A program made the position numbers and the translations under genes. 64,000 nucleotides of DNA, taken from NCBI GenBank assembly GCA_028622995.1, contig JAJQJQ010000021.1:1798001-1862000 (forward strand). The letters are read 5' to 3'. Each line of letters opens with the position of its first letter. Positions within the stretch are counted from its first letter, which is position 1. This document shows, piece after piece, positions 1 through 60,634 of this stretch. This DNA is from Panagrolaimus kolymaensis. Taxonomy: Eukaryota > Nematoda > Chromadorea > Rhabditida > Panagrolaimidae. The notes beneath the pieces are model-generated. The model made no database searches, had not been told where the DNA came from, and saw only the letters and a list, made by a program, of their open reading frames with translations.

Positions 1-3000
1 TTAATCCAATTTGCACGATTTTACTTATGAACAGTTATCGAAGAGTTATATTCAATAAATTTGTTGCAAAACATCCATCAAAAATATCAAAAATTTCTGT
101 TATCCCCAAACCTACAACTAATCCTATTATTTTAGTTAATACCCATTAATGATTTTGTGAAATTATTTTTTGTTATATTTTTTTGAATAAAAACGGGGTT
201 GATTCTAAATTCATTTCAATTGTGAAAAGCTTCATTTAAAGAAAACTATAGTTGGGGTAATTGGTTTTTTCTTCAGCCTTCAGCTAATTCATCTCTAAAA
301 TAGACTGAAAAAGCGGGTAAATCACGAAAAAAACTGTAAAAGTTCAGCAAGGATTTGGATTGTCTATTCACATATTTTTGCGTGCAAAATTTATTTAATG
401 AAAAAAATTAAACTGCAGCGGCTGAACATAACTGGTAAATAATAGTTTGAAGTTTTTATTAAATATTTAAAAAAATGCTTTGGTGCTTTATAGATTTTTC
501 TTAATCTATCTAAAATTCACAAGGGGAAAAAAACACAAAGAAAAATAAAACAAAATATTCAACAAAAAAAGAGAAATATTGTTTGTTTAGTGGGATAAAA
601 AAATAACTGCGATCTCCAATGCTAATCATTTTTTTTTGTTATATAAACTGCGTTTCGTATCATTATTTGTACGCCATACACATCACTTTTTTTAATACTT
701 TTTATGTTTAACGTTAACTGGAAAGTTTTGTCATAAAAGAAAAACTTTTTCTAAACTGCAGTTGTTTATCATCTTGATTTTTTAAAAGGATTTCTTAAAA
801 CTGAATTTGCTCGAAAATCCTTTTTCAAATGTTGTGCAATTTTTTTATTTTTTTGCTTTTTTTAAAAATAATTGGAATGAAGACTTGACTACCGATAACA
901 CGACATTTTAAAGGGAATGTAAACTGCATTTAAAATCGCTAAATGTTTAAAATTTGCATAGGATAAGCAAATTATGAAATTAACTGTCGTATAAAATCAT
1001 GACAAATAAAATTGACGAACTGGAAAAAAAAAATAAAACAAAAAACTGAATAACGTTCATATTTAGGAAAGCAATTTGACAAAAAATTTAAGATTGATTG
1101 GTCAAATTGGAATCTTGTTTTTTTCTTAATTTAACTATCGATAATTGTTTGACTGGTTTTTAATAATAAAAAACTGTACCAATGCTTGTTTGAAGAATTT
1201 TAAAAATAATTCAAAAACTTATTTGCTAGGATAAAAAATTGCGATCATTAAAATGATCACTTTAAAAACTGCATTGGAAATGGTAGACTTTCCAAAAAAT
1301 TTCTTTCATTTATCGATGAAACACACAATTCCCCCATTCGCATAAGTTTTTATAAACAAAATTTATTTAATGAAAAAAATTAAACTAAAAAAACTGAACA
1401 GGGACCAAATTCATCATAGAAAAGCTTAAAATTTGATATTAAAAAAGAATATTTCTTTATTTTTTTAACGGCTTTTAAAATTTTAAATTAATGAACATAA
1501 AAAACCAATAAACAAAAATGAAATATTCAAAAAAAAAACTGTTAATGTCTTTGTTGGACGGGAAAAGATTAATTGTTTAGCACCATCATGTAATGTTCTG
1601 CTTTTAATTTACGATTCAGGGATAAAAAAAAATAATAAGTTGCGTTCGCAGCAGTAACAAAATTTGAAGAATAAATCACTTTTTGGAGCTTTAATCGATA
1701 TATTGTTTTAAACATGGATTTATACAATGTTAAACTGAATTTGGATTCATTCTTGCTAATATTAAAAAATTTTAACTGATAATTGGCATGGGCTTGTTTA
1801 CAACTTTCAAAACAGGTTTAATAAATTTTTGTTTGATTTTAAAAAATCTGTATTCTACAAATAAAATACAAATGATTTTATAAAAATTAATATTTAAAAC
1901 TGCATAAAACGGAGGCTATTTGCATATTTATAAATTTTAGGTGAACTTGCTCTTTTTATCCAGCGATATAGTAAAAAAACTGATAACAATAAATCAACGC
2001 AGCTCTTTTTAACCAGTAATTATAATTAAAAAATTCGTAAAAAAATGTCGATATGGCGCGCTTGGGTATTAATACACATTTTAGGATTTTAACTGACAAC
2101 GAGTAAATTGTGAATGAGATTACATGAGTTTAACGGCATCGCGTTATCCATTATAAAAAAGTTTTAACTGAATATGATTAATTCTGTAGTTAATAATTTT
2201 CGTTAATGTTTGAGTCCTTATTTGACTTAAACAACATTTAAAAAAAACTGTAACTTGTTCTAATGATACTAAAAATAATTTTAAAATATTATAATCAAAA
2301 CTGTAGCAAAAATAGCTACTCTTTTTTCGGGGTTTAGCTGCAATTGTTTTTAAATTTCGTTTAAAATAAATCCCTTAAAAAACTGGTTTATGTTGATTGT
2401 TGCGGCGGCATTTAAATTATGGCGATTTGTTGGAAAATTTAGTAAAAATTAACTGACTTCACTAACACACTTTTGTAAAACTTTAACTGGCATCAGCTAT
2501 GTTTAATGGATTTTTACATAAAAAAAATTATGTTAATAAGAAAAAATAATAGAAAAAAGATAACTGAATGGATGAATATTCCCTGGAGAGGTTTTTATAG
2601 TTTGGTATAAACAAATTTTACTGTGGTTTAACCGAGAATTTTTTTGTTGCGTTAAACTTTTGTTGGAATTGAGAAAATTTTTTTTATCACAGATAATTTT
2701 ACAAAATAAACTGTCATGTAGTTTTTTATGTTTTGGTTGAATAAAAATTTTATTTAAATTTAATTTAATTTTTAACTGAAATTTATTGGAATGGTTTCCA
2801 AATTTTTTGAATAATTTTTCCCCACTTTTTTACATTATTTTGAAGGTAAAAAAATTCATAAGAAAATCTGTACTTGTTTGCAGCCACTACATATAAAAAA
2901 TTGCCGTAATAAATTCAAAATAATTTGAAATTTGAAATTTGCGACCAGGAGGATCACATACATCATGGAGGGTTGTAACAGAGTTTCAATAATTTTAGTT

Positions 3001-4101
3001 TTTAATTATATTTTCAACTTTACATTTTAAAAAAATAAACTGTTTTAATACATTTCTGGTGATTTTTGAATAAAAATAACATAAGCAAATAACGATGAGT
3101 ATTAAAAATTTAAAAATACATTGTTTTTTAAATTTAAAACAAACTGGGACGATCAAAAAATCTTTATAAAATTATATTTTTAAAAAATGTGTTAAAATGA
3201 GTTTCATTTGTTTTTTTTGTAAACTGAGTTGAATATCTTATTTGCCAAACAAAAAATATTCCAAATGAAAACTGTTAACGTGTTTGTTTCGAGGGAAAGG
3301 GGCCTATCACTATCTGCTTTTTTGAAGTAGCTCGTCCAAACTTTGATTAACTAATTATAGCATTTTCAAGATTGGTCAATCATTTTTTTTGTTGTTGGAT
3401 AAACTGAGTTTCTTTTTGTACCAATTTATGCATACATATTTCTTTTACACTTTTATAAAACATTTTTTTGTTCATTGATAACTGTAATAGATTTGATGTG
3501 TGACGCCAATAAGAAAAAAATAATATTAAAAAAGTTCACAAAAAGTGTCAAAGATTTCTTAAAGTTATTTTTGAATTTTATAAAACTGGATATTTGAAAT
3601 TCATTTTATTAAATGTTTCTCTTTTTTTTTTTAAAATAATTTTTTAACTGTTATTTATTAATTAATGTTGAATAATTTATTATTTTTCCTTCATTTTCAG
3701 AACATATTCGTTTAGAATATACCTAACTTACTTCTTTCGGCTTTCGGCATCGATGAGAAAGAATAATTAAATAAGCTAGCTTACCAAAAAGATTACTGAT
3801 TTTATTGTTAGTTTTAAATTTTAAAAACTGGAAGTTTCAAACATTATTCATTTTTGTGCTCTCTATTTTTTGTTGTAACTGGCTACTTTGAATATTTTGT
3901 TAATTAAAATTTATTGTATTGCTTTTTTCCACAACTCTTTGGTTTACAATTAAAAATGAAAAATTTACAAAAACTAAAAAAAAGATTCAAAACATTCAAT
4001 CAAAAACAAAAATTTACATATAAATTTAAGAAATATGACACGCTTTTCGAAGAAAAAAAAACTGAATTTATTTGAGATCACATAATTATTATTTATTTAT
4101 T
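1..4101 (-). repeat. Oriented AAACTG/CAGTTT motif array, 3' side of the GPCR gene
   Basis: No gene is seen here. The stretch is AT-rich and carries the AAACTG/AACTG motif on the plus strand dozens of times, for example near 333, 411, 648, 754, 799, 921, 1045, 1172, 1267, 1393, 1538 and 1734. Each is preceded by A/T runs and followed by 20-25 nt of more mixed sequence. The reverse reading CAGTTT is nearly absent. Parts are diverged direct duplications: about 625-700 resembles about 3384-3450, and about 1520-1570 resembles about 3255-3310. AATAAA-type polyadenylation hexamers on the minus strand sit right after the GPCR stop codon (about 4089-4101). Confidence 0.8.
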
Positions 4102-7100
4102 TTATTCGTCATCATCATCTTCTATGGAATTTTTCGTTGTTATTATTTCATCTTTTAAAAGGGTTACAATAACTGAAGGAACATTGGAATCCATGCTATT
4201 GTTAGAATCCATAGTATTTTTTCTTTCAATCGAAGAATTATTTGTTGTGAGAATACTCACGGGCGTGGCTGAACGCGAGGATAACGTTTGAGGATTATCT
4301 GACATTCGCCTTTGATCAATAATATTCAGAGATTTGGCTGGGGTGCTTGGAGTTGGAGTAGATTGTTGTCGATATGATTTTACTTGAGCCGTTGTTGTTG
4401 ATTGCTGGGATTTTGTTAGAGTTGTTTTTCCATTATTCGATCTTTTTTCTAATAAACTTGGTGAAAATGATCTCGTCGATCCACTGGTAGCCAAAATTTC
4501 TTTTCGATTTTGTAATGCACTTTGTGGCAAAGAAGATGAATTTTGACCCGTTGTCGTTGTAACAAAATTTGATGGAGATAATTTATTGTTTTTATTGTGG
4601 CTGTGGTTGCTGCTCGATGACGACGATGAAGCTCCATTGGTTGGTGAACGCTTAATTCGTTCATTATATTCTGATGCAGCTCTTTCATTTCGACAAATAG
4701 GTCGAAGGAAAAGTTCTTGAGAACTTGAATGTTTCATTTGGCATGAATCTCGTAGGGAATTTCGATATATTGAAGAATTAACCCGAATGGAATGGGTTCT
4801 CGATGCAAGGGAATTATATTTGACGTCTTTTGGAAATGTGACACAGCAACCACTGAAAAAAAAATTAAGAAATTAGTTTAGGATAAAAACTGACGAAAAA
4901 GATTTGGGAATGGCACAAATTTTATGGTAATTTGCAAAAGATACTTTAACTATAAAAAACCTTTAATTTTGGATTAAATTTTGTAAAGCAAATATAAAAC
5001 TGTGTTGGCGATTGGATATTATCACCAATGTCTCAAATTTTCCCGATAATGGTGTTTTTTATTCCATTCATAATTAAAACTGTAAAATAAAGTTTTAAAA
5101 GGATTCCATCCTTATTTTATTTTTTAATAATTAAATATTAGGATTTTATAAAACAGCTTTTCATGTACACATTTAAAAGTCGATCAAAAAACAATAAAAA
5201 ATAATAATTTTAAATTAAAATATTTATTATTTTAAACTAAATTACAAGGGTCTTCCTTGAACACATCTGAAATGTATTCACTTTTTTTTACAAATTGACG
5301 ATTGAATAAGAAAATTCTAAACTGCGTTTTTATATCATTAATCAATAAATTTATGGTAATTTAATAACTGTTTTGATCCGAAAAATGGATAAAAAAAACT
5401 GATGATTATAAAAATAGTGTATTTGCAAAACAAAATGTTTATTTGGGCCTAATATACAAGGTTTTTGAAACTGTGAATGGCTAATAGTTTTCGAGCTTCC
5501 TGGCAGGATAGAAAAAAACTGGCACGTTTTATAAAAACTTAAAAGATAACCTTATGCTTTAAAAAAACTGTTGACAGTTATTTATTAAAACTTTTTATTT
5601 ATTAGTTAGATTTTTTTAAGAGGACTATTAAATCATCAGCAAAAATTTTAAACTGTTATTGATAATATCACGAATTTTTTTTTAATATTTAACTGCCCAT
5701 TGGAAACATCATCTAAAATGTATTAAACATTTTCTCACGGTGACTCATAAATATAAAAAAGAAATTTAATTTAAACTGCATATTTTTCTTCTCACGGTAA
5801 ACATCAATTATAAGAAAGCGTTTTTATATTCTCTCTTAAAGCAAACTTAAAGTGCCTTCATTAAACTATGTATGTATGTGACCGCGTTTTACTTTACTTA
5901 CTTATGCACTTTCTTTTTTCGCCCCTACAATTTTTTTTTAAAATTCGTTTAAAAGTAATTATCTATTTAATTTATTTTATGGGGAAAAAAGTGATGCGCG
6001 CATTTCTTTTCTTTCAAAGTACGTATGAAAAAAAGAAAAAAAAATTAGATATTAGCAATCTTTTATTTTTTCGCGGGGTTTATAGTCATTATTTAATAGT
6101 AAATATCAAAGTACTACAACAATATTTACACCTAATTAAATGCTGCTTGTTTTACTTCCTTTTTAAACTTTTATAATTTCCTAAACTTTTTTTCTTTTCT
6201 TTTTGTAATAGTTGGGTTTGTGTAAAAGTAACTGGATATGAAAATGTGATCGTACGAAGAAGCACTGAAAAAAAAACCCTTATTTTTTGAGTGAAAAACC
6301 CTCAAATCGTGGGGTATTTAGCAACAACTTTTTGCCCTAAAGGGCTCATCAACCCTCATTCCAAAATGAGGGTTATGCAATAGTTTTAAAACGGTAAAAC
6401 CCTCAAATAACGAGGGTTTAACCCCATTCGGGCATGGTACAAAAAAAAGATATTTTCCAAAATTTATTTAAAAGTTACTGTAATGATGCCAGAAAGACTG
6501 ACTACTATCCAAAATTTTAATGCTATGGCAAAACCAAAGCTTATTTAGGGTGAATGCATAAGCAAACCCTTTCTTTATGTTAATATAGTTCAGAGCTATT
6601 GCTACTGAATCTATCTTAACTATCTCTAGTTCAATATTCATCAGATGGAGTTACGCACGTCTATGCCGCCACCCTCAGAAAATGAACCGAAGATTAACCA
6701 AAAAATCAACCGAAGCTTTGCTTCTTTATTTCTGAGGCTAAAAATATATTGCATGAATCTAAAAGCGTGCAGACTATAAAAGAGAGACAATTTAGGGGGT
6801 TAAAACACTCATATATTAAACATGGGTGAAATACCCTTTGTTTTAAACGAGGGTTGACCAACCACCAAAAAAACTGTGGGAAAACACTCAAAATATAGTG
6901 GTTTTACTTCAAAAAATGAATGAGGGTTTTACAACAAACGGGTTTTTTTTTCAGTGAGAAAGTATGCCGCACAAAAGTGCTTTTTTTTATAAACTGTGGC
7001 GTTAGAATGGATTGGGTCTCAAATCTCATAATTTTAATTATAACTGGAGACAATTCATGGTTTTTGAATTAAAAAATAAGGTTTAAAACTGAGTAACTGC

Positions 7101-9146
7101 AAGGAGCGATGCAAAAAAAGCTTGTCTAAATCAAAAAAAAAACTGCATTTTTTAATAAACTGTTCTGCGAATTGTAAATTTTAACTAAACCAAGAGAATC
7201 TAATTTTTAAAGGAATTTTATTTAAACTTAAAAGTTAGGTTAAAAACTGACCGAGAGTATGACGACTCGTGGCTAAAAAAAAGTACTCGAAAAAGGCGCA
7301 ATTTTAATAAACTAGTTTTCCTAGATTTAGAGGGGCAAGGCGCAAAAAGTTTAATTAAAACTGGATAGTTATGAACATTATTCATTTTTTATAAACTGTA
7401 TTTTAAAATACATTGAATGTTGGGTTAAAAACTGGGTTGAGCGAAAAAAGGTTATCAAAAGGAAATTTTTAATAAACTGTTCCTGGCGATGTTATTTTGA
7501 TTAAGTCTCTAAATTTTATTTTTTTAACTGTATTAAAAATTATGCTTTCCTTTTAAACTGTGAAAAGCAACTCTTGGTGTTTAAGTTAAAAACTGGGTCC
7601 CTTGTTCTGATACGGAAAAAAGCCCATCAAAAAACTATTTTTAATAAACTGTTTTTCAGGTTTAAAATGCTAAAAATATTAAATTAAAACTGAGTTGCAC
7701 AATCTTGTGATTTTTAGAAACTGTTGAATGTCGGCAAAGCGAAAAACTTACAATAAAAATCTCATCGCTGTTTGACGATATTTCTCACTAAATGCCAAAT
7801 AAATAATAAAAGTTGTTGAAGAATTAAATACCACAAGTAAATTAGATAAATCATTTAATTGATATGCATACCATTGAGTGGATTCATCATTAAATAAATT
7901 AGTTTTAAAACATTCTGCTAAATTTAATAAAAATGGAAGAGTGTTTGAAATTGCAAAAATTAGTGTCACTATTAACAACATCATCGTGGTGGATTGTTCG
8001 CGTTGTTGTTGACGCGTTAACATTTCTCTTGCTCGTCGAAGTTTTATAATCGATTTACACACATGTCCATTCATAATTATTATGACCCCAAAAGGAATAA
8101 GGAAATGTGTTAGAAGATATAAAACCGTAAAATATCCAATCATATAATATGGATGAGTTTCAAAATTGCGGAGATGTCTATCATAAATATATCCATGAAT
8201 GGTCCAATTCATGGAATATTCCCAAAATCGAACTAAATTATATGCAACAGCAAAAAGCACGATGATGCCCAATCCTGTTCGAGATGTTCGTGGAGTACAC
8301 CAAATTCGAACTTGCAATGGTCGACATACAGCTGTCCAACGTTCCATAGTAATTAAAACCATAATATAAATGGAACATGTTTGCATAATTAAATTTACTG
8401 GATATACGAAATTTAACATATATGTATAGTAGACATGAGCAGAATAGGAGTTTGGGTCTTCACTCCTAAAAAAGAATTTTTTTATTTTATTAAAAACTGA
8501 ATATCAATTTCCAATTTGGAATTTTCTCATTTATATAAAACTGTTTTGTTGAATGTGGGGGGCTTGAGTTAAAGAAAACAAAAAGTAAAAAGGGAAACTT
8601 TCTTCTTCTCAAAACTGGTCGAAAATTTGGAATTTTGCAATTTTTTGATTTTTGTAAAATGATTATTTACTTTTTTTATTGGTACCAAAAAAGCGAGTTA
8701 AAAAAAACAAATAAAAAAAGTGAAAAGAAAATTTTTTATATGAAAAACTGAGGCAACACGTTTGTTGTTGAAAATCTTTAAACCTTTTTATATAAAACTG
8801 CATTCAAATTTTTTTTAGTAAAATGAAAATAAGAAAAAACTGGGTTTTATAATTAATTTTTGATAAATTTTTATTTTATATAAAACTGAGTATTTATTAT
8901 GTGGAGGAAAAAACTGTAGTTCCAATTAAATCTTTTAACTTACCATAAACCCAAATGAGGTAAAACAAATACAGGCACGGCAAACAATAGCAAACATAAA
9001 TCCACAAATGAAAGAGCTGCCAATAAAGTATTAACGGCGGTTAAATGATTTAAAAATGCTACCAAAGATAATAAATTTCCAAGGCATCCAATTATTATAA
9101 TTGCCAATGTTACAGCAGCCACATAATTTTGTAATGATTCGAACAT
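4102..9146 (-). CDS. FMRFamide-receptor-like class A GPCR, three coding exons
   Basis: I join exons 9146..8944, 8465..7752 and 4852..4102; donors are GTAAGT and acceptors TTTTTTAG and TTTTCAG, and the phases fit to give 555 residues. The product is a plasma-membrane seven-helix receptor, probably for a neuropeptide. Seen: TM1 at about 9-32 with Gly-Asn at 23-24; TM2 at 38-62; TM3 ending in ERW (109-111) in place of DRY, followed by a CRPLQVR..CT stretch typical of FMRFamide receptors; TM4 at 130-150; an N-W-T glycosylation site (154-156) in loop 2; TM5 at 173-199; TM6 at 227-253; TM7 with FNSSTTFIIY (281-290) in place of NPxxY. After the helices come a CC pair (possible palmitoylation) and a Ser/Asn/Thr-rich tail of about 260 residues ending in an acidic run. 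The N-terminus before TM1 is only about 8 residues, so an upstream exon may be missing. Both introns are packed with the CAGTTT motif (sense strand). The receptor class is well supported; the ligand is unknown. Confidence 0.88.
6263..6956. mobile_element. Foldback DNA element with CACTG inverted ends, 694 bp
   Basis: The ends are perfect 17-bp inverted repeats: CACTG, nine A, CCC on the left, and its complement on the right. Weaker inverted similarity continues inward, where GAGGGTT/AACCCTC motifs recur on both sides. CACTG termini with following A runs recall the CMC (Chapaev-type) DNA transposons, but no transposase is encoded, so this would be a non-autonomous copy. Only a 2-bp AG match is visible as a possible target-site duplication. 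It sits inside GPCR intron 2, and the AAACTG motif is nearly missing inside it, consistent with a later insertion into the array. Confidence 0.75.
7080..7690 (-). repeat. Four diverged tandem units of about 150-170 bp, each with two motif copies
   Basis: Within GPCR intron 2 the pattern TTAAAACTG - about 50-80 nt - TTTTTAATAAACTG recurs four times. The second motif lies near 7155, 7306, 7471 and 7643, giving spacings of about 151, 165 and 172 bp. The third AACTG position reads AACTAG in the second unit. The sequence between the motifs differs strongly between units while the motif and its AT-rich flank are kept. Confidence 0.65.
8466..8943 (-). repeat. GPCR intron 1 with dense motif
   Basis: This 478-bp intron holds about eight AAACTG copies (near 8493, 8540, 8613, 8746, 8799, 8838, 8884 and 8912), whereas the 714-bp exon beside it holds none. 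The contrast is the clearest local view of motif exclusion from coding sequence. Confidence 0.8.
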
Positions 9147-10213
9147 TCTGGCTTTTTGAGATTTTTTAAAAATTTAAATAAAACTGAATATTGGGTATAA
9201 TTTTTTGGAATAAAACTGTGTCGCTTTTTATGATCGGGGAATAAAATTTTAATAAAAATATAAAATAATTAAAGCCAACTACCACAAATAATAATATTCT
9301 CTTTATTTTTTTATGTCATATGGACGAAAAACATACAAAACTGAAAATATAAAAATAATGAAAATGAAAATTCATAAGTAAGTTTTTAATAATTAAAAAA
9401 AAAGTTATATTTTCTCAGGCTTTCACAATTCATAAAAAACTTTCTTATTTTTTTTGTGGCAAAAAAAAGGCGTGTCACGAAACGCGAAACGCGAAAGAAT
9501 GAACGAACAAAAAATAAAAATAAATATTAATGCACTCATATTCTATGAATAAAGGGATGCATGGATACACACACAACACACACGTAAGTAACTTTTTTTA
9601 ACTTTGGTTTTGTTTAATAAATTAATAATATAAAAAACTGTAAAAATAAAAAAATAATATAATGTCAAAAAGCTTTTTTTAATGGGCATTTTTGCAAAAA
9701 AATAAAGAATAAGAAAAATTTTAGAAGAAAAAAAGCAAAAAAGTAATATTAAAAACTTTTTTTCTTCTTTTAAAAAGGTCAAACGAAGAACGTGGGTTGG
9801 GTTTGTGCGGTTGAGCTTTTTATTTTTACCATTTATGAATGGAAGTAAAAAACTGAAGTGACGCTTTTTTTATTTTTGACAATATTAAAAATATTGTAGG
9901 GAAAAAGTTTAAAAATATGGCAAAACAAATATAAAATATAAAAAAAAACTGTTGTTGGGAAATTGTTTGTAAGAATTTTTTTTAATAATATTAATTATAT
10001 ACTGTAAAAATATAAATCAAAACTGGCATAACACTGACATATAAGAAACGAACAGGATTTCATTACGATACATTTATTAAATATAAAACTGCACCAGGAG
10101 TATAAGTTTCGAAGCTAAAGCTAAGGTTTTACATTTTTAAAAACTGTTTCGAATATAATGAGCGATAAGTATTTTTGTTCTAAAAATTTTTTATAGACAT
10201 TATTCTTAATTAA

Positions 10214-10457
10214 AGGGAGTGTCCCAAACGATGAGAAAACCCTTACAGCGGGTGTTCCTAGCCCGAAAGTTTTTCTTCACTGTCTCAAAGTCTTACAAAG
10301 TTTTACAAAGTTTTTTCAAAAGCTTACGAAATTTTCTCAAAATGCTACAAAAAGCTACAAAAATTCGTAGCACTTTGTAAGCTTTTGAGACAATGAAACT
10401 TTCGGGCTAGGAACACCCGTCGTAGTAAAATTATTCTCATCGTTTGGGACACTCCCT
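10214..10457. mobile_element. Foldback MITE with TTAA target duplication, 244 bp
   Basis: The termini read AGGGAGTGTCCCAAACGATG on the left and the inverse complement on the right. The arms extend, with small gaps, for about 90-100 bp, including a shared block around GTTCCTAGCCCGAAAGTTT. TTAA flanks both ends (10210-10213 and 10458-10461). The TTAA duplication suggests mobilisation by a piggyBac-type transposase; this is inferred from the duplication alone, since no coding sequence is present. It interrupts the AAACTG array. Confidence 0.82.
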
Positions 10458-13400
10458 TTAAAGAATGTTTTATAAAATAAAAAGGTTAAAAAAAACTGTC
10501 CAACCATATGAAAATAAAGAAAAAAAATAAAAAAATTTTTTGGGTGATTACATAACAATTTTCTAATCTTGATCGCTGTAATACATAAGAGATAGTTAGA
10601 AGTTTTAGAAAACTGCGAGTTTGAGTTTGCTTTGTCTTTCTTCGAAAAACTTTTTCTACAAATAATTCTTTTTATATAAAAAGAACGTTCCATAAAATAA
10701 ACATACATGGAAGTAATTTGTCACAAAAAAAACCCCAACCATGACATGATGTATCTATCATGTCGTTGCCGGAAAGTTTATCCAAATAAATCCGGAAATG
10801 GGTAAAAAAAGACAAATGGAGGAGAAGAAGAAGAAAAAAAGTTGAAGAAGGAGGGAGAAAAGAAAATGAAATAGGGAAGTAAGTGATTATTATTATGATC
10901 CTTAAAAAATATATATAAAGGAGCCCCAAGAAAAAAAAAATAAGTATGACAAAAAAGAAAATCCCAGAAACCATGAACTCCAACAACCACATTCATCCAT
11001 TAATTCAATGGCCAAAGCGCAAAAGAAAGTATAAAAGCGAGGAAAAATTTTTTTTGAATGAATGAAAAGAACCTAATTAATAAAGAAAACTGGCTACGAA
11101 GGTTCGTATTGGTGGTGGGGTGACTAAAAATATAATCAGTTTTTTTTATATTCTTTCTTTCTCTCCCAAGCTTTTTTATTTTCTTTATTTTCTTTCTTAA
11201 CAACCGACGTATTACTTTATTAAAGCTTTAAGAAGAAGAAAACTGAAAAGGCACGGAAAACAAATGATGACAAAAACAATTTTTTTATTATTTAATAATT
11301 GGTTAAATGGAAACCAGGCATGCAGGCAGAGAAGCAGCATCTCAACACGACGACACAAAGAAACATATTTTTATGAAAAAATATTTAAATTACCACCGCA
11401 CGCAATAATACAATGTTTTTGAAAATGTGTATGTACTTAGGTTTTTTAAATTTTAAATAATGCTAACCAATTATTTTCTGTTCTAAGAAACAAAAAACCA
11501 AACAAAAGAAATAAATAAAATCTAAGAAACTGAAGTTAAACATTTTTTTCATCTTTTATTTTTTCAAACTTTTTTTTCTTTAATTTGGAAGATGCTCTTT
11601 CTCGTTCTTCCGCTCTTTTTTTTATTTTTGATTCGACGTTGCCGAGAAAGCCAGTAAGTGGTTTGACTCCAAAAAAGTCAAAGAAATGAAAAAAGAAATA
11701 AACCGTTTTTAGATAGAAGAAAAAAACGAAGAAGTTTTAATGACGCGACTTCTTTTTTTCTATGTGAAGCTTCTTCTTTATTTTTAAATATTCCTTAAGG
11801 GCAATTTTCTTTTCTCTTTTTATCAAAAAGCTTATCTCAACTTTTTTAAATTTTTTTTTATTTCCAATTTGTTCAAATGTTTTTTAGAAAATGGAAAAAA
11901 GATGGATGGAAGAAAAAAAAGGAAAATGGCTAACTGATGGGAAGTTTTTTAAAGAAAAAAAGGCGTTCTTCCACCAATTTTAAATATAAGAAAACTGAAG
12001 ACAAATATAGACGAAGGGGTTAAAGAAAAACTCCCACATCTATTAACTTTTTGGTTTCATGCTATTTATTTTTTTGGTTTTATCGGGACAACAGAATCTT
12101 AAATAAAGAAAACATGAATTATAAATGGATATACGAAAAATGGGAGGAAAAAATCAAAGTTTAAACTTAAAATTTAACTGAACAGTTATTTGCTCTGTGG
12201 ATGCGGTTAAGCTAAAGTAAAAATTTCATTTGGGATTCAATAATAAACTGTCAAATTCAATGCAATTCGTACATTTACGACAAAAAAAAAACATTAAGCT
12301 CTAGTTCTTCCCTTTTGTCTACAAAAAACTGATAACATTTTTATTTAACAAATGAAACAATTTTTTTAAAAACTGCATGAAATGACATTTAATTTTAATA
12401 AAGAGTTGCAAACTGGCTGTCTTTTCATTATGTTTCTTTTTGGAATAAAAACTGATGCTTGCTGAGTAAGAATAAGTTTTTTATTACTTTAAATTTGCTG
12501 ACGTTTTAGGAGGAAGGCTATTATCATTTTTTATTACTTTTAGAAAAATGTATTTCACTTAAACTGATTATAATAAAGTTTCATTTTAATAAAAAGTTTT
12601 AAAAACTGTGGTTTTATAGCAATTTTGATAGCAAAAACTGATCAGTACTTCAAACACGGTCAATTATTAATTCATTGAAAAAACTGAGCAACACAATACA
12701 AAGCAGGGGAAAAGATAATTATTTTAAAAGTGTCTCTTTAAGGAATAAAATTATCCCAAAAATTTGGTCCATTATCGTATCTTTTGCTAGAAAAACTATG
12801 TTAAAAGACAAAAGATTTTTTTTATTCATTAAACTGGGTGGGCTTTATCAAGAATCGTCATTTTCGCGATAATTAATTTAATTATTTTACTTTATCTTTT
12901 ATAAAATTAAAAAACGTTTGAATATTAAATTCATTCAACAGCGAAACTGAGTGCCAGTCTGGTGGTTAAAAATAATGAGAAAGCTTTTTTTATAATTGAT
13001 TTAAAAAATTGGAGCTATTATATAAAAAAAAGAAGAAAGAAGTCAAAGAAAAAAAGAAGAAAAAGAATAAAGAGAAAAATCAAGTTTTAGCTTTTAGTTT
13101 TCCAACCCAAAATTTTTTTCTTTATTTGGACTTTTGTGTATAAAATTTTTTTTGGGGGAAAATAAAAAGGAAATGGAAATGACGCATGGAAATGAGGAAA
13201 CATTAGTATTTAAGCCAATGTCGTCTCCGCTAAAACACAATTTTTTTTTTAGGGCTGTTTTTGATGCGCCTCTTGTCATAAACAGGGAGAGCATGTGGGG
13301 ATGAGTGTTACTCATTTAATATTTAGTTAATTTTATTATTACTTGTATATTTTTGACAAACTGTCGCTTCTTAATTAGGGAAGGAAGGAAAAATTAGGGT

Positions 13401-46450: not shown

Positions 46451-46504
46451 TAATTCTTATGATTATTTTCTTTGATGCAAAGTTTTATAAATTCTTTCTG
46501 GGAT

Positions 46505-47925: not shown

Positions 47926-47992
47926 GCATCGGGGATTCGAACCAACCATCTCCTTTTTCATTGTCAAAAGCCCCACTACGCCAAAGTGAAAA
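47926..47992 (-). pseudogene. Degenerate tRNA-like sequence
   Basis: The minus strand reads TTGGCGTAGTGG (A-box-like), then 29 nt, then GGTTCGAATCC (B-box-like). The T stem pairs only at two positions and no acceptor stem can be formed. It is a tRNA pseudogene or a tRNA-derived repeat. Confidence 0.5.
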
Positions 47993-48102
47993 AATTTGAG
48001 TTAAATTTTGAAAATTTGCATATATCTCGAGATCCATCTTGACTTCCTATTGCTCCGTTAATTTTTCTGAAATCTACGGGTGATTTTACCCCATCCTAGC
48101 TA

Positions 48103-48139
48103 GATAGAAAGATCGGGCCTTCGGCCCGATCTTTCTATC
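48103..48139. repeat. Perfect 17-bp GC-rich hairpin with TTC loop
   Basis: GATAGAAAGATCGGGCC is followed by TTC and its exact complement. As RNA it would close with a C(UUCG)G tetraloop. It is the longest member of the TTCG-hairpin set seen again at 60.6-63.35 kb. A Rho-independent-type terminator reading is unlikely in a nematode nucleus. Confidence 0.7.
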
Positions 48140-48589
48140 GAGCACTATGGCCCTTGTTTTTTTCATATTATAATCAAAAAATGCCATACCAGAGAAAAAA
48201 AAATCAAGTGCATTCTTTTTGACACAAGATTTACAATATCTTGATTCATAGGTACTTCAAATTATGGAACCCATTAAGTTTGCCACAATGACAGCATTCC
48301 AAAAATTTTGTAAAAAAATCTCAACAAAAAATGTGTAAAAATAATAGAAAAACTCAGAGCATTTTTGAGATATTGACAAACCAAACAAAACATTCCTCAA
48401 TTCATACAACATCATCGCCAACCAACTAAAAAACTTTTTAGCAAATAACAAATATACCTTTTTTTCTCTATCTCCATCTCGAAAAACGACGAAGACTTTG
48501 GACGACAAACATTTTGGTATAAAGTAAAAAGTAAATCTTCTTTCCTTTTTCCATTATTTTAATGATTGACTGACTGACTGGCTGCTGCG

Positions 48590-48628
<39 letters not shown>

Positions 48629-48629
48629 A
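48590..48629. repeat. GAAA microsatellite
   Basis: About ten uninterrupted GAAA units, preceded at 48564-48581 by three GACT units. Confidence 0.9.
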
Positions 48630-50046: not shown

Positions 50047-50117
50047 CGCATCGACCGGGAATCGAACCCGGAGCACTCGCGTGGGAGGCGAACATCCTAC
50101 CATTAGACCACCGATGC
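50047..50117 (-). tRNA. tRNA-Gly (CCC)
   Basis: On the minus strand acceptor GCATCGG pairs with TCGATGC (one G-T); the anticodon stem is TTCGC/GCGAG with loop C-T-C-C-C-A-C, giving anticodon CCC; the T arm is CCGGG-TTCGATT-CCCGG. The D arm carries the usual GGTCTAATGGTAGGAT. All arms are intact and there is no intron. Confidence 0.94.
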
Positions 50118-50583
50118 GTTGATAAATCCCCGAGGATTTTGGAGCTACTTATCTTCAAAATTCTGGTGGAATTCGCTCACCAAGAGTTATGCGAAAATAG
50201 CTAGCTATTATCTTTGGGAAATCACTGAAAATTACAGACACCTTTAGAAGGACAAAAATTCCAAAAGCAAAAGAAGCATTTTATCGGAGAAAAACAATTG
50301 AATAAAAAATTCTTGAAAGCCGTAATTTTAAAATTATGAAAAAATAAATAATAAAAGCAATATGGGATTTTTATGCTCTATCTATCAAACAAAAAATATA
50401 AAAGCCAATAATAATGTAAAGCAAAAAATTTTTCTCCAATTTATTAAACTTCCATTGCTTTTGCTTTCTTTCGAAAAATTTTATTTTGTCGAGATTTGCT
50501 TTCTTGAATTTAAAAAAGTAATCAGAAACCTTACAAATGGATGATTGAGAAGAAGAAAAAGCTTCAAAAAATTAAAAAAAGAT
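50118..50583. other. Spacer between the two tRNA-Gly genes
   Basis: AT-rich sequence with no motif array and no gene recognised. The two tRNA genes lie in the same direction about 470 bp apart. Confidence 0.5.
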
Positions 50584-50654
50584 TGCATCGACCGGGAATC
50601 GAACCCGGGCCGCCCGCGTGGCAGGCGAGCATTCTACCACTGAACCACCGATGC
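50584..50654 (-). tRNA. tRNA-Gly (GCC)
   Basis: The acceptor is the same as in the neighbouring tRNA-Gly (GCATCGG/TCGATGC); the anticodon stem is CTCGC/GCGGG with loop C-T-G-C-C-A-C, giving anticodon GCC; the T arm is CCGGG-TTCGATT-CCCGG. It is intact with no intron. It differs from the CCC gene mainly in the anticodon arm and variable region, so the pair probably arose by duplication and divergence. Confidence 0.95.
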
Positions 50655-52170
50655 TGGTAAAATAGAAGCTAAATTTTTGAAAGACACCCAAAAACCGAAT
50701 GCGTCTATTTTCTGTATTTGTCTTTTTTGTTTTAAAAATTCATAGAAATAACCAATAAATAATCCCAAGGTCACATTAATCGATAGAATATTGTTTTAAT
50801 CTTTGGTCAATATGGTTTTAAATCGGAGAGATTAAATACAAAAAAGTGACTTCGATTTTTATTTATCCATCGAATCTTTTTCTATTTGCTTTTTATTTTT
50901 CCTTCGTTTCCTCAATGACCTCTTTTCTCCGAAGGTTGCTTTTTTAGTAGGGAAAATATGGCTCAAGTGTCGTTGTCCCTTTATTTTTTTTCAGAAAATT
51001 TTTAGTTGGGCTGGCGTGGCTGATGCATTTTTTTTTGCAGTTAGTTAGTTGCTCAGTCTATTTTTTTTTCTTTTTCTTCTTCCTTTATGCCACGCATATA
51101 CGCACACACCAAATTTCGAAATACTTTTTTTTAAATATATTATTTTCTTGGGAAACAAAAAATTCGTATCTTTATTTTTTCTTAAAAAAATTTACACCTT
51201 AAAAAATTTTCCGTTGCTTCTCTCTTATTTTTTTTTTCTCCATAAAATCATCCATAGAATTAGAAAATAAAAACTATTGATTTTCCTTTTTTTTAATGGG
51301 CAAAAAATTATTTTTTTAAACAAACCAGAATAAATAAAAAATGGGAGGGAAAAGAAAAACAAGCCTTTTTTTTATGGTGACATTTCTTTTTTCTCGTTTC
51401 TCGGTGTTGTTATGTATGTGGTGGTTTTTCTCTTTTCATTCTTTTTTTTTGTTGTTTGTTGCTGGCTGCCCCATTAATCGATAGTTTTTTTTCTTCTTCT
51501 TTTCTTTTTCTTCTTTTCCGACAAGCCAACAACTTTTCTTCTTCTTTTTTTCCCGCTACTTCTTATATTTATGGAAAAAACAAAACTAAACTAATAAAAA
51601 ATAATGGGTAACAACTCTCTCTTATTTTTTCGATCCAATCTAAAACCTTTTTCGAGAAGAACAACGACAGGTGGTTGTTGTTGCTAAGCTATGTGTGTGG
51701 TCTGAGGAAAAAGAAGAAGAAAAAAAAACAGACAGAGAGCATCAACGGTTTTGCTTTATTAATCCCTATTTTTTGAATATTTAAATTTTATTAATATATT
51801 TTTTTATTTTTTTGTAATAAAATCGTTTTTTGGATGGCTTTAAAGCCTCTTAATTAAAGCGAAGGTGAAACAAAAAAATCACATTATTTTGACATTTCCC
51901 TCATAATGTAGCTCTAAATATTTATATGTAGTTTAGTGCTACATTATGAGGTCCTACATTTAATTTGGAAAAAAAAGTTTTTAAGCACCGAACTTGTGCT
52001 ACAGATGGACTATTTCAATAATTATTGAAATAAGTGCGTAGGACACTTAGATCCTACTTCATGAAAATAAAATTAAAATAAAGAGAAAATTAAATTGTTC
52101 AAAAAAAAAATTGAAAGAAAAAAAGAAGAAAGTTTTTAAATTGCTTAGCATTTCAAGGAAATTTAAAAAA
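50655..52170. other. Noncoding region left of the third motif array
   Basis: No gene or motif array. T-rich and CTT-rich tracts dominate. Near the right end are the hairpin at 51899-51951 and the perfect palindrome at 52011-52032, which lie just before the motif array restarts at about 52,174. Confidence 0.5.
51899..51951. repeat. 53-nt imperfect hairpin
   Basis: CCTCATAATGTAGC pairs with GCTACATTATGAGG, then one T-T mismatch, then CTAAA with TTTAG, and a 13-nt loop. The size and single mismatch resemble a short microRNA precursor or a MITE relic. At 52011-52032 there is also a perfect 22-bp palindrome (TATTTCAATA and its complement around AT). Confidence 0.55.
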
Positions 52171-55100
52171 AATTATAAACTGTGCTCGTTTGACAAAAAA
52201 GGTTATTTAACCAAAAAAACAAAAATAAACAAACAAATTTTTAACTGAACATTCTCAGGATAATCCAAGCACAAACTATTATTTTTGTATTACATAAAGA
52301 CGATAAAAAAACTGAGTAACTGGATAAAAAATTTTTAATTCAAAAATAGTGGTTATAGAAAATTAAACTGACGAGTAGTATCCTTTAATTAAAAAACAAA
52401 TATTTTTTGTTTTAAACATAGAATCATTTACTTTTTATGAAAAAAAATATTAAAACTGGTTGATCAAATTGACGAGAGGGCTCTATAATAATAAAAAAAA
52501 TTTGTCACTGAATTACCAGATTAAAAAAATTATAATCACTTTGATTGGTTTTTTTTTTTATCAGAAAGCAAAAGTTTAGAATTTCAATATTTATTACCGA
52601 TCTTGCATTACAAAAAAAATTATTATAACAAAAAAACGCTAAACTGATCGGCAAAGAAAGGGGATAGTTTAAATTGTTTAAATTCATTGATGAGGTTAAG
52701 ATTAAAACTGTCGAAATGATAAAATAATAAAAAATAAGTTTGAGTCTAAATTAAAAAAAGTTAAAGAAAAATTTTAACTGCATCCGTTTTTTTTTGTTCA
52801 GGAAACAAACACTTTGAATTTTAATTTTTTTCTTGTATTTTTTGTCTCCCTAAAAAAGAATTAACTGATAAGCAAGATATATTGCGTATAAAAACTGTCA
52901 TTATGATGATCGACGATCGCTATATCAACATTCATTTTTGTTCTTTTTTTCCACAATCAAAAAACTTTTGTGTAAACTGAGATGAATAAATGTTGACTCA
53001 AAAAAAAATTGGGTCAATAAAATTGTGCTAGCTATAAAAAAAGCGTAGAAATGTTAAAAAATAGTTGAATAAAATTGTTTTTGATGCTTATATATTTGTT
53101 TTGAGGAATATATGCAAAAACTGTAAAATAATATATTAAAAAACTGTCGAAAATGTTTATTAAAATTAACTGAGAAAAACAAAGGAGTCATAATTTTTTA
53201 TAACACAAAGTTGTTCCGCAAATAAAAAAAGGATTAAGGAAATATTTTTTTTATCAAACTGCAATGTCTTTATTTTTTTCTTCACCTTTTATCGGTAACC
53301 TTCTCAGATATGGTTTTAAAAAACTGTAATTTAGAATTCCCATTTGTAAAATTATTCTTTCGAATTCAGAAAAATAATGATTTAATGTTGAATTTTAAAT
53401 AGCTTTGACGATGTTAAGTAAATTACAAACTGTTCTTTAACAAATTAGCAAAAATTCAAAATAAATTTAGTTTTTAATTTATTTTTTCATTATTTTCTTT
53501 TTTTAACTTTAGAAATATTTAAACTCAAGAGAACAAGGAGGAGGAAAAATAATTGCTATTGACTTGTAAGTTAAGCCAGTTTGTGAAATTTTATACTGAT
53601 GTACATATATGTAGAGCTTTTTCAGAGAACAAAGTTTTTATTTATTAAAAAAGGATAAACTGATGGGCGAAGAAACAAAAAAATTTTTTTAATCGTTTGA
53701 TATCTTTGACCAAATTAAAAATTTATAAAACTGTGTCCACTTCAGGATTTTCAACGAAACACCAAAAAACAAAATTTTAACTGCATATTTTGTTAAAACC
53801 TTTTTAATCATTTTTGAATTTAAACAAACTGGAATGTTATGAACCTTGCTTTTCATTTTGTAATGGGAATTTTAAAATGGCGATTTTAATTTTTGTCGGA
53901 ACAAAGTTTCAAATTTTAAAGTTATTTCAAAATTTGTTTGCCATTATATTTATTTTTACGGAAGGCGGATTAAAACTGGATGAGAAAAGGAGGTGGGAGG
54001 CCTAACAAAAAAACTGATTTTAGTTTGTAAAACATAAGCAAGTTTCAAGCTACAAATATAGCCACTTTTTTTTTCTTTAGCAAAAACAAATGTTTTGAAT
54101 TTTTTTTTGTGATTTCGTGCATCATATGTTTTTTTTTATTTAAATAGGGATTTAACTGACAGGAAAGTTATTATGCGTTTAAAACTGACATTATTGATTT
54201 GATTGTTAAAAAAAATCTATTTTTGTTCATTTTTGCGAAAAAAAAGTTTTTTTGTAAACTTGAGTGAACGAACCTTGACTTTAAAAAAACTAAGTCAGCA
54301 AAACTGAGCTTGTTTAAAAATATTTTTTGAAAAAACTGTATTGATACTCACATTTTGTATTGAGGAATTAATGTAAAAACTGTTAAAATAATTTTATCAA
54401 GACAGCAGAAAAAAAATGTTTATTCAAAATTAACTGCAAATAACGTCACGAGTTTTTTTAGTGCAAAAAGCTGCTTTAAAAAAACCTTTAAAGGAATATT
54501 CATTCCTACCAAACTGCTTCAGCGTAACTATTTTTTGCTTTTCTCAGTACCTTTCCAAGATATGGTTTAGAAAAACTGTCTTTGGACCTTAAATTTGTAA
54601 AATTGCTCTTTAGATCAAATAAAAAAATTTGGATTCAAATTACCCAAAATTTAATTTTAAAAATAAAATAAACTGATTTCGTAAATGCTTTCTTACTAAT
54701 CGAAAAAATTATTCTAATTTCTTACTTAAAATTTTTTCCATATTTCTTGAATCAAAAATTTTAAAATCCTCATAATGAAAATTTATAGATTTAGAACACT
54801 GTCGATTAACGATTTTATTTAGCAAGATTAATGAGAAAAAAACTGCGCCATGCAATTCTGTTTTAAATGAAGAAAAAAAGTTATTAAAAATTATTATGAA
54901 TAAAAACTGTATAGATTAAATATTTTAGGAGAATAAATTTAAAACTGTAAAAAAAGTTTAAACTTGGAAGGATTAAATGAAAAGTAAACTAAATTGTGAG
55001 GAGCTTTGTGGATTCTATTGTGACGATAAAGAAAAAATAAGATAAACTGTCGAATAATAATACGAATGTCTCATCTTCTGAATTTACATTCTCATCTTTG

Positions 55101-58100
55101 TCCTCACTTTCATATCATACTTTAATGATGAATTTTTTATAAACTGCCACGATTGCTTTCAAAATTTTTTGTTACAATAATAATATAATAACACGATTAC
55201 TAAATATGAATTAAGAATTTTCTTTTTTATATTTGCAAACATTCAAAATAAAATTAATTTATAATTTGTTTTTTCATTATTATTTTTTTAACTGAAGAAA
55301 AATTTAAACTGAAGAGAAGTAACTGGATAAACTATTTGTTGTTTGAAATTTAAGCCATTTTCAGAATTTTTAAACGACAAATTGCTTTCTCAAAGAACAA
55401 AATTTTTTTATATTAAAAAAGGATTATTAACTGATGGCGATGAACAAAATATTTGATTGTTCATTCGCTTTGACGAGGCTAAAAAAAAATTAGAAACTGA
55501 CCCATCTTGAAAAGGAATCCTTTTTAACCAAACAAAAGAAAAAAGAAAATTTTATCTGCATAGTGTTCTAATAGATATGAATATTTTTGAGGCAAATAAA
55601 CTGAGATGTTTGACATATCCATGTATTTCATTCTTTTATTTAAATTATAAACTCGCGATTTTAATTTTTGTCGGAACAAAGTTTCGAATTTTAAATTTAT
55701 TTCACGGCTTGTAGTCACTATTTATTTTTATGGAAAGACGGATTAAAACTGTATCAGAAAAGGAAGCGGAGGTCTAACACAAATTGAGTTTGAAACATAA
55801 AAAAGATTTTACAAAAAAAAACTGAAGATTGACTATTCCCCAGAAAACAAAAGTTATTTAAATTTATTAGCAATTTTTTATTTATATTTTTACAAAAACA
55901 AAAAAGATTAAAACTGTTTAACACGAAGAAAGACAAAAAGTAACTATGAGTTGTAACTGTTTTTAAATCATACCATGTAATAAGAAAGTTTAAACTGCTA
56001 ATTATCGTTATTATTTAATTAATTAATTTTCCTGAACTTCGCTTTAAACTTTTTTAAATTTAAATTAACTGACAAGTAAAAATATTCATAAGCTTTAAAA
56101 CTGAGCGGTGCTAAGTAAGTATGTGAAATAGACATTCGTTTTTGCTCGTTTTTACGCAAACGAAAAAGCTTTTTGTGAACATGAGAGAGTGAACGTTGAC
56201 TCAACAAAAAAACTGAGTAAGTCGAATTCAGGTTGCTTCAAAAAAAGTGTGTAATAATGGTAAAAAAATTCTTTAAACAAAAACTGGGTTGATGTTTTTT
56301 GGTCTCGAATCCAAGAATTAAAATAAACTGTAAAAATATATTTACTGATGGGAATGTTTCTTCAAATTTAACTGTAAATTTAGGAACCAGATTTTTTCAT
56401 TAAACAATAATTCCGCGCTAGAAAAAAATGTTTATGGAACTATTTGTTTTTAAAAATCTTGCTCCTTTGACATCGTTTTAATTTTTTTTGGAATATTAGT
56501 TATGAGTTTAGAAAACTGCGAAGCGCCATTTAAAAGTGAGTGAGAAATAACTCTTTTGAAAACATGAAAATTATGATAAATGTTTAATTTAAACTGTTCA
56601 ATATCTAATTTTTTGCAAATATAATTAACTGTCATCTATGTCGGTTAGCGGCAAATAGAAAAGATTATTGATTTTTTACAACAAAAAAAACTTTCTAACA
56701 ATTTTTTTGTTTCGTTCAAAAACTGAAAATCATCATAATAAAAATTAAATTATTTTTAAAGCACTGCAAAATTTCATAGTTTTTTGTAAGATTAATAAAA
56801 AAAACTGCGACAAGTAATCACTGTGTGATTAAATGAAAAGTATAAGGTGTTAAAAAGTTTGATAAATAAGAACTGTGTGATCACCATTTTGTTTATTCTA
56901 TGCAATTTATTTTAAAAGTGTAAAACAAATGTGTTCAAAAGGGGTAAAAAATGAAAGTAAACTGTCATACAAAAGAAATGTCATTGTTCGCTTCCGAATC
57001 ACATCGTCAATTTATGCTTTTATCATACTTCAATGATCATTGTTTTAAAACTGTGAACAATCATTTCGAATTTGAAATTATCTGTTGAAAAACAACAAAG
57101 AAAAATTAACGAATGATATTAAAATTACTGTTAAAATTCTTAAAAACTAATGTTTATTTTCAAAAGATAAAATAAACTGAGAACAGCATTAATTCCGAAA
57201 GGATATTAATTTTTTAAATATTGATTTTTAGTGCAGTCATTATTGGCTGCAAAGTTGTTAAAAACTGAGTTATCTCCACCTTAAAGGCCTTTGAAAAAAA
57301 TTCAATTTACTTTTTAATTTCTTGTAATTTATCTATAAACTGGGTGGGATCATATGGAAGGCAATGATGATGGGTTTTTTCTTCACAAATTAATTTTAAC
57401 TGTTTTTTTTTTCAACAAGAAAACCTACAAGATTCATTCAAAACTGTAAATATTTATATATATAATTTTGCAAATTCGAAAAATAGCCAAGCAGAAAATT
57501 ATTTTTGTTAAAAAAACTGCGATATAATGCCTCGTCTTTGATTTGAAATTATTATAATTTGAAAATTTCAAAACTCAAAATCATGCTTGTGAAGAATTAA
57601 CTTAACTGCAAACATTGCACTTTAGCCTAATTTTATATAATTAAAAACTGCACAGCTTTTGTTCGGAGGACATTTTTTTAACACATAACTGAAATAATAA
57701 ATAAAAACAATTTATTAACATTTTTAATATTTTTATTACAAATAAATCCTTTTGCTTTATTTGTTTTTCGATAACTGCCTTTTAATGTGCTGGTCTGAAA
57801 ACTTACTTAATTATCTAAGAAATTTTTTTACAATTAATTTTTAAACTGAGTTAAGCCATTGTATTAGGAGAATAATTTTGTTTTTTATATGTCATAAAAC
57901 TGTGTTAATGTTTTTTTTGTGGTCAAAAAAGGTTTTATGGTTTCAGTCAACAATAAAATATATCTAAGATTCGTAAAACTGAGAATGAAGCCCGATATTC
58001 GTTTTTACGCTTTTTCTTTAGAAAAAAAACCTTACAGATTCATTCAAAACTCTTTAAACTGAAATTCGCATTTTCGGAATATCGCAATTCCAGATATTTT

Positions 58101-60610
58101 TATATTTATATAATTATAAAACTGCATTGATAATAGCGACTACCGCCATGCTTGATAATAATAAGCTTTTAACTATTTCAAAAACTGATAACTAAGAAAA
58201 CATAATATTAAAAAATGGAACAATATCGCTGCCACGAATTTTTTCTTGGTCAATATAAAACTGCATAATGTGATTATTAAGGTAATACATGTTTAAGTTA
58301 TAACTGTAAAAAACATGTTATCAACTTATTTGTTAACATTTCAATAGAATAAGATCGAAAAAACTGTGGGATATTTTATGGGAATATTTTTTTGGTAAAA
58401 AAAAATGAGTTCGACATGTTTAAAAAATGGAACAATTTTTGCTAAGCTATAAACTGTGGATCGCTTTATTTATCAAAATTTTAAATTCTAAATAATTTTA
58501 AATATTTTTCTAAATCAATTTTTAATAATAAACTGTTTTGATAATAATTAATTTTATAGCTGACTTTTTTGGAATTTTGATAGCTTTTAAAACTGTGTTA
58601 TGCTATAAAGCTCTAAAGAAAAAAAAACTGAGTTTCAGAATGTGTACACTTTTAGAAGTAAAAACAGAGAGCTTTGATGCATTCCTTCCCTCCTTCTTTT
58701 AACTTTTTTGAAAACAACAAATTTATTTTGCATGTATATGAATTTGTGCGCCATTTTAATGCCCCATGTCCTTTTAGAACATCATCGTCATCACGAGGAA
58801 AGAGGAGAGAGGGCATTCAAAATACAACGACAACAACAACTACGGCAAAAGCGGCGGCGGCAGCGTTGTTGACTAAAAAAGGAAGCTTTTTCAAAACTGC
58901 ATCTCGGCATAAAATTTTTACTTCAAAGTTGTTTTTTTACAACTAAAAAAAGTTTCTTCATATTTTTTTCTTTTTCTTCGTAACGTAAAATTTTTTGCTT
59001 AAGGCTTTGTTTTATATTTTATTTTTTCTTGAGAAATTTTTTTACGAAATATTTATGTCTGAAAAATAAAGAAAAGCAACAAAAAAAAAATATTTATTTC
59101 AAAATTAAAAGTATATGACTGACTAGATGGGGTGATTCGATTCCGTGTTTTTCTTCTAAAAAACACTTTTATTATCTAAGTGGTTATGATTATGAAGATG
59201 CGGATATGGAAAAAAATAGAGAGGTATATAAATAAAAACTGCAAATGCAGGCGAGAAGCGGAAGAAAGAAAAGTTTTTCAAAGTTTCTTACATTTTTATT
59301 AATAATTTAAAACTGTCATTGAGGAGTGAAGGACCTTCTTTCTGAATTCATGCTTGTTTTTTTTTTCATTTTTAAAACTGGATGTATCTCAAATTTCCTA
59401 TTATGCTTTTTTTTAAATCTAAAAATCAACCCATCTGTTTTTTTATTTTTTGTTTTTTCTTTAAAAAAGATGGTCAGCAACAAATCAAACGCCATCATCA
59501 AAAAACTGAGATTCAGCGTGTTTTTTGTATTTGTTTATTTTTAAAATCTAAAATTTTTAAGAATCAACAAGCAATAACAAAGAAAAAGCATTAGTAATCT
59601 ATTTTTTTTCACTAAGACTTACGTGTTTAACTGTTTTTTGATTTTTTTTGGCCAACGATTCCTTATTATTTCAATATAAAAGGGAGACCTCCATCGGCTT
59701 TGATATTTTATTTCCTTTGTTCTCTTTTTTTTATTATTAAATCACCATTTCATTATGGAATTATCTGATTCAAGTCGCTGCAATTTTAACTCGAATCAAA
59801 AAAGAACTTAATTTTTTTATAATTATAAACTCTTTCTGGCTTTTATTGATAAAAACTTTTTAAGGAAGGAAAATTTTTTTTATATATAACTGAATAAATT
59901 TCTTTTTCACTTTTTTAATAAAGTTTCTTTAAAAAAATTTCTCTTCCCATAGATTTCTGGTATTTTTTTTATAGTAAAACTGTCTTCGTGTTTGGCTGAA
60001 CGGTTTTGATTTTTCTATTAACTATTGTATTTTTTAATAATTTAAGGAAAATTAAACTGTTTCATGTTCAAACAAAAAGTTCTATTTTGCTATTTTTAAA
60101 ACTGCATTTTTTTAATTCTCAAAAGTAACGTGCATTATTTGAAATATGCAAATCTTGGGTTGGTTCAAATTAAACTGGTTGCATATGCATTTGTTCTTTT
60201 TAACTGTCAGAATAAAATGTTGATAGTTAATTAAACTGATCCATTTAATGGAACATGTGTAAAGAAAACTGCCAATTTTTACTTTTCCAGGAAATTTTAG
60301 AAATATTAAAAATTTTTGAGCTTTTATTTAAATTTAATTACTTAAAACTGTAATAATCAGAGTGTTTTTAAAAAAAAAACCATTAATAACTTTACTTCGC
60401 TATAGGTTATGAAGCGCTAGATAAAAAAAATATTCCTCTTTTGGATTTTAAAACTGAGTTGTGTCGATTAAGTGTTTTTCTGATTTATTAACTGCAATAT
60501 ATTTTTTTGGCAATTTCAAAGCCTTATAAATAATTAAAACTGCTGTTTGGGTTGAACAATTCGATAAAAATCTTTTCTTATTTTTTTTCAATTTAAACTG
60601 AATCTTCTTC
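52171..60610 (-). repeat. Third oriented AAACTG motif array
   Basis: The motif reappears on the plus strand from about 52,174 (ataaactgtgc) to about 60,593 (ttaaactgaat), again with AT-rich sequence before AAACTG and mixed sequence after it. It contains at least three diverged tandem duplications (separate entry). No coding exon is convincing. The stretch 58750-58870 is less AT-rich, with ACG/ACA and GCG/GCA triplets, and could be an exon or a triplet repeat of an unseen gene. A motif-poor gap runs from about 58.95 to 59.23 kb. Confidence 0.8.
52200..57180. repeat. Three diverged tandem segmental copies of about 1.3-1.9 kb within the array
   Basis: Anchors line up in the same order. CGATTTTAATTTTTGTCGGA begins at 53881 and 55656 (identical for about 30 bp). 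ACTGAT.GGC.AA lies near 52644, 53658 and 55430. GTTGACT lies near 52992, 54273 (as CTTGACT) and 56194. TTA/TTC-run followed by AACTG lies near 53157, 54419 and 56358. TTCAAAATAAA-TTTTTTCATTATT lies at about 53455 and 55245. The copies share the motif positions but the words beside them have diverged. Confidence 0.72.
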
Positions 60611-60634
60611 AAAATAAAAATAAACAAGAACATT

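Follow-up and report, generated by a model that had tools for sequence, protein, structure and literature searches.

We analyzed a stretch of 64,000 nucleotides from the genome of the panagrolaimid nematode Panagrolaimus kolymaensis (contig JAJQJQ010000021.1, positions 1,798,001 to 1,862,000; here called the window), in which noncoding DNA carries arrays of the short motif WAACTG (W = A or T), one orientation per array. A first-pass annotation had reported the motif as AAACTG, which occurred 276 times on the plus strand and 69 times on the minus strand; it was right that the core is oriented, but the first letter is either A or T, and WAACTG was found 427 times on both strands together. The mean in 100 dinucleotide-preserving shuffles of the window was 89.0 (standard deviation, 7.9), and their maximum of 106 was well below the observed count, so the oriented array is real and larger than that annotation had described. 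A plus-strand array lies at 331..25970 and extends leftward past the window start to about -4.0 kb. It faces a minus-strand array at 26298..34326 across a short gap (25971..26297) where the orientation flips, and a second plus-strand array lies at 52177..60600. The reverse orientation was nearly missing from each domain, as had been claimed: there were 235 plus and 8 minus copies in 1-26000, 0 and 64 in 26001-34400, and 104 and 1 in 52101-61000, with a single plus copy and no minus copy in 61001-64000. Adjacent sites switched orientation 25 times, compared with a mean of 133.8 and a minimum of 106 in 10,000 permutations of the strand labels. The domain borders first proposed were correct to within a few hundred bases, but the block at 34401..52100, from which the motif had been called absent, is array-poor, with 14 scattered cores (4 plus and 10 minus), and arrays continue beyond the window on both sides.

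Within the first plus-strand array, and antisense to it, sits a gene for an FRPR-18-like receptor on the minus strand. One exon (7751..8452) matched seven-transmembrane families and was 88% identical to a Panagrolaimus protein, an upstream exon (8943..9140) was found by tblastn, and an open frame at 4105..4872, partially covered in tblastn with P0011, is probably the last coding exon. The array-poor block contains minus-strand open frames for a FERM-type protein (39183-40893), with weak SNX17/27/31 and KRIT1/FRMD8 FERM matches under the curated cutoffs. Two tRNA genes lie on the minus strand at 50047-50117 and 50584-50654, and a third, on the plus strand at 29357-29442, lies within the minus array. 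A tandem array of about 1.7 kb at 61122-62899 has nested periods of 22, 44, 78, and 122 bp. When 100 kb was added on each side of the window, giving 264 kb in total, ten runs of WAACTG units, 1.6 to 30 kb each and separated by array-poor blocks, spanned 90 kb (34%) of the region, with the longest single-orientation array reaching up to 30 kb. Open frames of at least 90 amino acids with a GC fraction of at least 0.33 lay mostly outside the arrays (110 of 126), and 16 lay inside. Open frames rich in T, S, P, Q, and R (L001-L010) recur, with near-identical copies, to the left of the window (about -60.7 to -41.2 kb), in a block almost without WAACTG.

The 264 kb contain 977 WAACTG sites, and the anatomy of a unit was derived from the 845 that have at least four same-strand neighbors within 750 bp (132 sites were excluded). 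Inside arrays, WAACTG was distributed 832 to 18 between the two strands, whereas the other one-letter variants of AAACTG had low or similar counts and at most about a 3-fold strand difference; the core is therefore exact. Upstream of it lies an AT-rich lead of about 12 to 15 bp, with A runs directly ahead of many cores. On the 3' side a GC-richer body of 19 to 21 nucleotides follows, in a zone that reaches position +26 (the T and G of the core being +4 and +5), and then AT-rich DNA again. The GC fraction was about 0.30 in the body compared with 0.19 ahead of the core and 0.23 beyond the body, with a change point after +26. With GC content substituting for melting temperature (Tm), the units thus have the high-to-low step about 20 nucleotides past the putative start that marks 21U-RNA loci. 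Cores were rarely closer than 29 bp (only 27 same-strand neighbor intervals were shorter), the unit is about 30 bp long, and the 21-mers of all 845 units differed from one another. An example is the plus-strand core AAACTG at 8494..8499, whose body (+6 to +24) occupies 8500..8518. This GC-richer, fast-diverging body of 19 to 21 nucleotides 3' of the cores is the most telling feature of the arrays, and the first-pass annotation had missed it.

Several other kinds of element were considered and rejected. Hairpin, microRNA-like genes were not indicated by folding (mean z score of -0.03 for 60 nucleotides of 200 sampled units versus mononucleotide shuffles), and T runs, expected of RNA polymerase III units, were not enriched past the body. 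A scan of the 264 kb with Rfam gave tRNAs only and no small nuclear RNA that would mark a nearby promoter of that type. Tandem Repeats Finder returned 53 rows, which were local repeats plus the one large array at 61 to 63 kb; none accounts for the WAACTG arrays, and the sole row containing AAACTG was weak (22276-22319, 1.9 copies).

P. kolymaensis is described as triploid in an excerpt of PMC10374039, and a 1.45-kb query from the window detected two further long copies, on contigs C5 (94%) and C23 (89%). We compared about 16.5 kb of homeologous sequence within this one genome (L042, L043, L045, and L046), which yielded 158 motif comparisons that are partly nonindependent because both copies cover some of the same window sites. 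WAACTG was retained in 125 of the 158, and 22 cores were found in the homeolog alone. Exact identity was higher for core hexamers (123/158, 78%) than for comparison hexamers made of four A/T letters plus a single C and a single G (925/1,612, 57%), although one of these, GCAAAA, was equally high (17/22). Mismatches amounted to 2.9% in cores (27/924), 2.6% in exons (48/1,854), 6.4% in flanks (655/10,282), and 16.2% in bodies (460/2,834), and the excess in the bodies was present at A/T and at G/C positions. The ratio of body to local-flank mismatch was 2.04 (95% interval, 1.69 to 2.51) and 1.89 (1.53 to 2.34) in the two copies. Six control hexamers, with other units masked, had body mismatches of 0 to 7.7%, three of them with fewer than 10 sites. 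The fast-diverging zone was fitted best by +6 to +24, and the change point after +24 makes the segment from the core U (+4) to +24 exactly 21 nucleotides long. In the region of the receptor gene, 4-fold sites differed at 33 of 239 positions (13.8%); bodies, at 227 of 1,163 (19.5%), were near or somewhat above this rate, and flanks, at 214 of 2,903 (7.4%), were below it. Read cautiously, this comparison suggests a conserved core, a constrained AT-rich frame, and a body that is free to vary. Divergence was also patchy: at 5373-18491 versus C5 and C23, 40 of 122 bodies had no mismatches and many had four to seven, perhaps from gene conversion among the copies.

The arrays extend well beyond this region of the 265.8-Mb, 807-contig assembly, in which the window lies on contig C20. 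Triplets of AAACTG with gaps of 25 to 54 occurred 3,866 times in the same orientation, compared with 314 for a letter-reversed control, and mixed-orientation triplets occurred 71 times, compared with 56 for their control. Among the 100 same-orientation triplets listed of the 3,866, in contig order, C1 had 1, C2 had 3, and C3 had 96, the last all on the plus strand between 6.777 and 7.503 Mb, while 55 of the 71 mixed triplets were on C3, C5, C18, C20, C23, and C42. The units are thus clustered in a few large genome regions, as 21U-RNA loci are. Scaling from the 60 triplets and 832 units of the 264-kb region gives, very roughly, 49,000 to 54,000 units in the genome, or 16,000 to 18,000 per subgenome, totals that may be far off because a single region sets the scale. 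We had suspected that sequence outside the arrays strongly avoids the motif, but its depletion there was only mild (0.62 of expectation; rank 463 of 2,905 hexamers).

The genome gave 143 Piwi-domain exon matches, which suggests a large Argonaute family. The best 20 of the 143 fell into five groups, whose representatives all matched AGO chains best, clearly in the case of L021 (448 versus 60 bits) and narrowly in that of L039 (64.8 versus 59.1 bits). No Piwi-clade protein was identified among these representatives, and the Piwi_N model had no match in the genome, although its controls gave none either. A Piwi gene split across short exons may be among the remaining 123 matches.

On balance, we favor the reading that the window belongs to an extensive cluster of minute small-RNA genes, each encoded separately. 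Independently promoted small-RNA units had been the best guess of the first-pass annotation, and they fit best with the exact core, the unit of about 30 bp, the unique body, the GC-to-AT step, the fast divergence, and the clustering. Each unit would consist of the AT-rich lead, the exact core, and the unique body. The core could serve as an initiator, with RNA polymerase II beginning near its second A (+2) to give a transcript A-C-U-G-N19, and the drop in GC at +26/+27 could cause the polymerase to pause and stop, leaving a precursor of about 25 nucleotides. Trimming of two nucleotides would then make the core U (+4) the 5' end of an RNA of 21 to 22 nucleotides (U+4 to +24/+25). A start at +2 makes this U the third nucleotide, and U+4 to +24 is 21 nucleotides, equal to the fast-diverging zone. 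The steps have counterparts in excerpts on Caenorhabditis elegans. Its piRNAs are each a tiny transcription unit, and the 21U RNAs evolve fast (PMC3597512); precursor length tracks a high-to-low Tm step, and the pausing signature is a high Tm from the transcription start site to +19 and a low Tm from +20 to +40 (PMC6436959); and the nuclease PUCH, which cuts the 5' end, requires a cap and a U at position three, and precursors tend to begin with A or G (PMC10567574). The body might vary as a guide while the core and AT-rich frame are kept, and the presumed role would be to survey the genome by way of an Argonaute that is not of the Piwi clade. We propose more tentatively that a Piwi-less nematode lineage has re-evolved a genome-encoded, piRNA-like repertoire, or has retained one under a different Argonaute, amounting to about 16,000 to 18,000 units per subgenome, with WAACTG as a new initiator core that supplies the RNA 5' end and with strictly unidirectional arrays.

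A number of observations speak against separately encoded units. Across the 845 units, no second motif at a fixed distance from the core rose above noise, GTTTC (the Ruby motif) had no peak at -130 to -10, and the unit profile contained no TATA-like dip near -30. The body positions gave no 5'-U signal beyond the T of the core, and the core supplies A-C-T (R-N-T) preceded by A rather than by the Y of YRNT. Cores were unmatched in 33 of the 158 homeolog comparisons, although some of these are alignment shifts, and bodies only slightly above the 4-fold rate may simply be unconstrained. Long unidirectional clusters are not present in C. elegans according to an excerpt of PMC3597512, so autonomous units would not require such polarity, and an excerpt of PMC4323106 reports non-clade V nematodes to be without 5'-U small RNAs and Panagrellus to be without piRNAs.

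The polarity can also be explained by a different arrangement, nearer to the piRNA clusters of flies and mice than to the 21U loci of C. elegans, in which each array is transcribed as a long noncoding precursor and small RNAs, beginning with the U or G of WAACUG, are released by processing at that site. The strict orientation, kept for as much as 30 kb within the 264-kb region and, among the triplets listed, for 0.7 Mb of C3, the convergent flip at 26 kb, and the lack of a promoter-like second motif all agree with it. However, the lead of AT-rich DNA and the drop in GC at +26/+27 resemble initiation and termination signals, array-free blocks break up arrays of the same orientation, and the receptor gene lies antisense within the plus array; we regard a long precursor as unlikely. 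The receptor gene runs on the strand needed for a third small-RNA reading, in which a CAGUUW RNA is copied by an RNA-dependent RNA polymerase (RdRP) starting opposite its C. The resulting G-initial RNAs (G+5 to +26) would be 22 nucleotides long and coincide with the GC zone, and 22G-RNAs and an EGO-1-type RdRP are reported from clade IV in an excerpt of PMC4323106. Long template transcripts are not evident, though, with so few open frames in arrays (16 of 126), and RdRP products need neither the AT-rich frame nor WAACT, which makes this reading highly improbable. That one of the three small-RNA readings holds is likely.

Two further readings involve no RNA product. A short conserved core that is oriented, dense, and found on particular contigs could be the site of a DNA-binding protein acting in chromatin, chromosome pairing, or replication polarity; we consider this quite improbable, since it leaves unexplained a GC-richer zone of a fixed 19 nucleotides that diverges 2 to 2.5 times faster than its flanks, and also the spacing floor of about 29 bp unless the footprint is equally long. 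AT-rich DNA with A runs before many cores could also suggest a by-product of composition or a degenerate repeat. The strand bias confined to the exact core, the distinct bodies, the failure of the control hexamers, the conservation of cores between homeologs, and the shuffle counts contradict this explanation and leave it a negligible chance.

If separately encoded units are correct, autonomous repertoires of guide-RNA mini-genes are possible without Piwi and without a Ruby or SNAPc motif, and the three diverged homeologs in one animal would allow selection to be measured naturally across thousands of units together. Searches of the open-license PMC literature turned up no report of the WAACTG motif and none of Panagrolaimus small RNAs.

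Known systems share parts of this pattern. The periodic A/T clusters (PATCs) of C. elegans, which have a period of about 10 bp, are likewise AT-rich noncoding DNA, but they are not known to have a core plus body, and AA/TT autocorrelation in the arrays was near zero at lag 10, below lags 12 to 16, so that PATCs were rejected for want of a clear 10-bp period. The piRNA clusters of flies and mice, which are transcribed as long precursors, resemble the arrays in being long unidirectional source regions, but the arrays have a repeated exact core and a fixed body zone in each unit. Type I piRNA (21U-RNA) loci of C. elegans, other clade V species, and Plectus share megabase-scale clusters built of smaller ones, AT-rich noncoding DNA with one short motif per unit, and a unique, fast-evolving sequence of about 21 nucleotides with a high-to-low melting step, known here at the sequence level. 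The analogy with nematode piRNA loci drawn by the first-pass annotation holds to that extent, but type I loci have a GTTTC/Ruby or SNAPc-type motif about 40 nucleotides upstream (35 to 42), whereas here the core abuts the body and either adjoins or overlaps the presumed 5' end of the RNA. Excerpts of PMC4323106, PMC6436959, and PMC9071541 describe clade IV nematodes as having lost Piwi and piRNAs. With Ruby absent, arrays unidirectional, clade IV so described, and no Piwi identified, we do not class the region as a 21U-RNA or piRNA cluster. The 21-22U RNAs of Strongyloides ratti, also a clade IV species, are clustered, have AT-rich flanks, and belong to the 21- to 22-nucleotide class that our units, as read from DNA, would encode; according to an excerpt of PMC9203780, their loci are motif free and on both strands, whereas the arrays of P. 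kolymaensis have an exact oriented core and a single orientation each.

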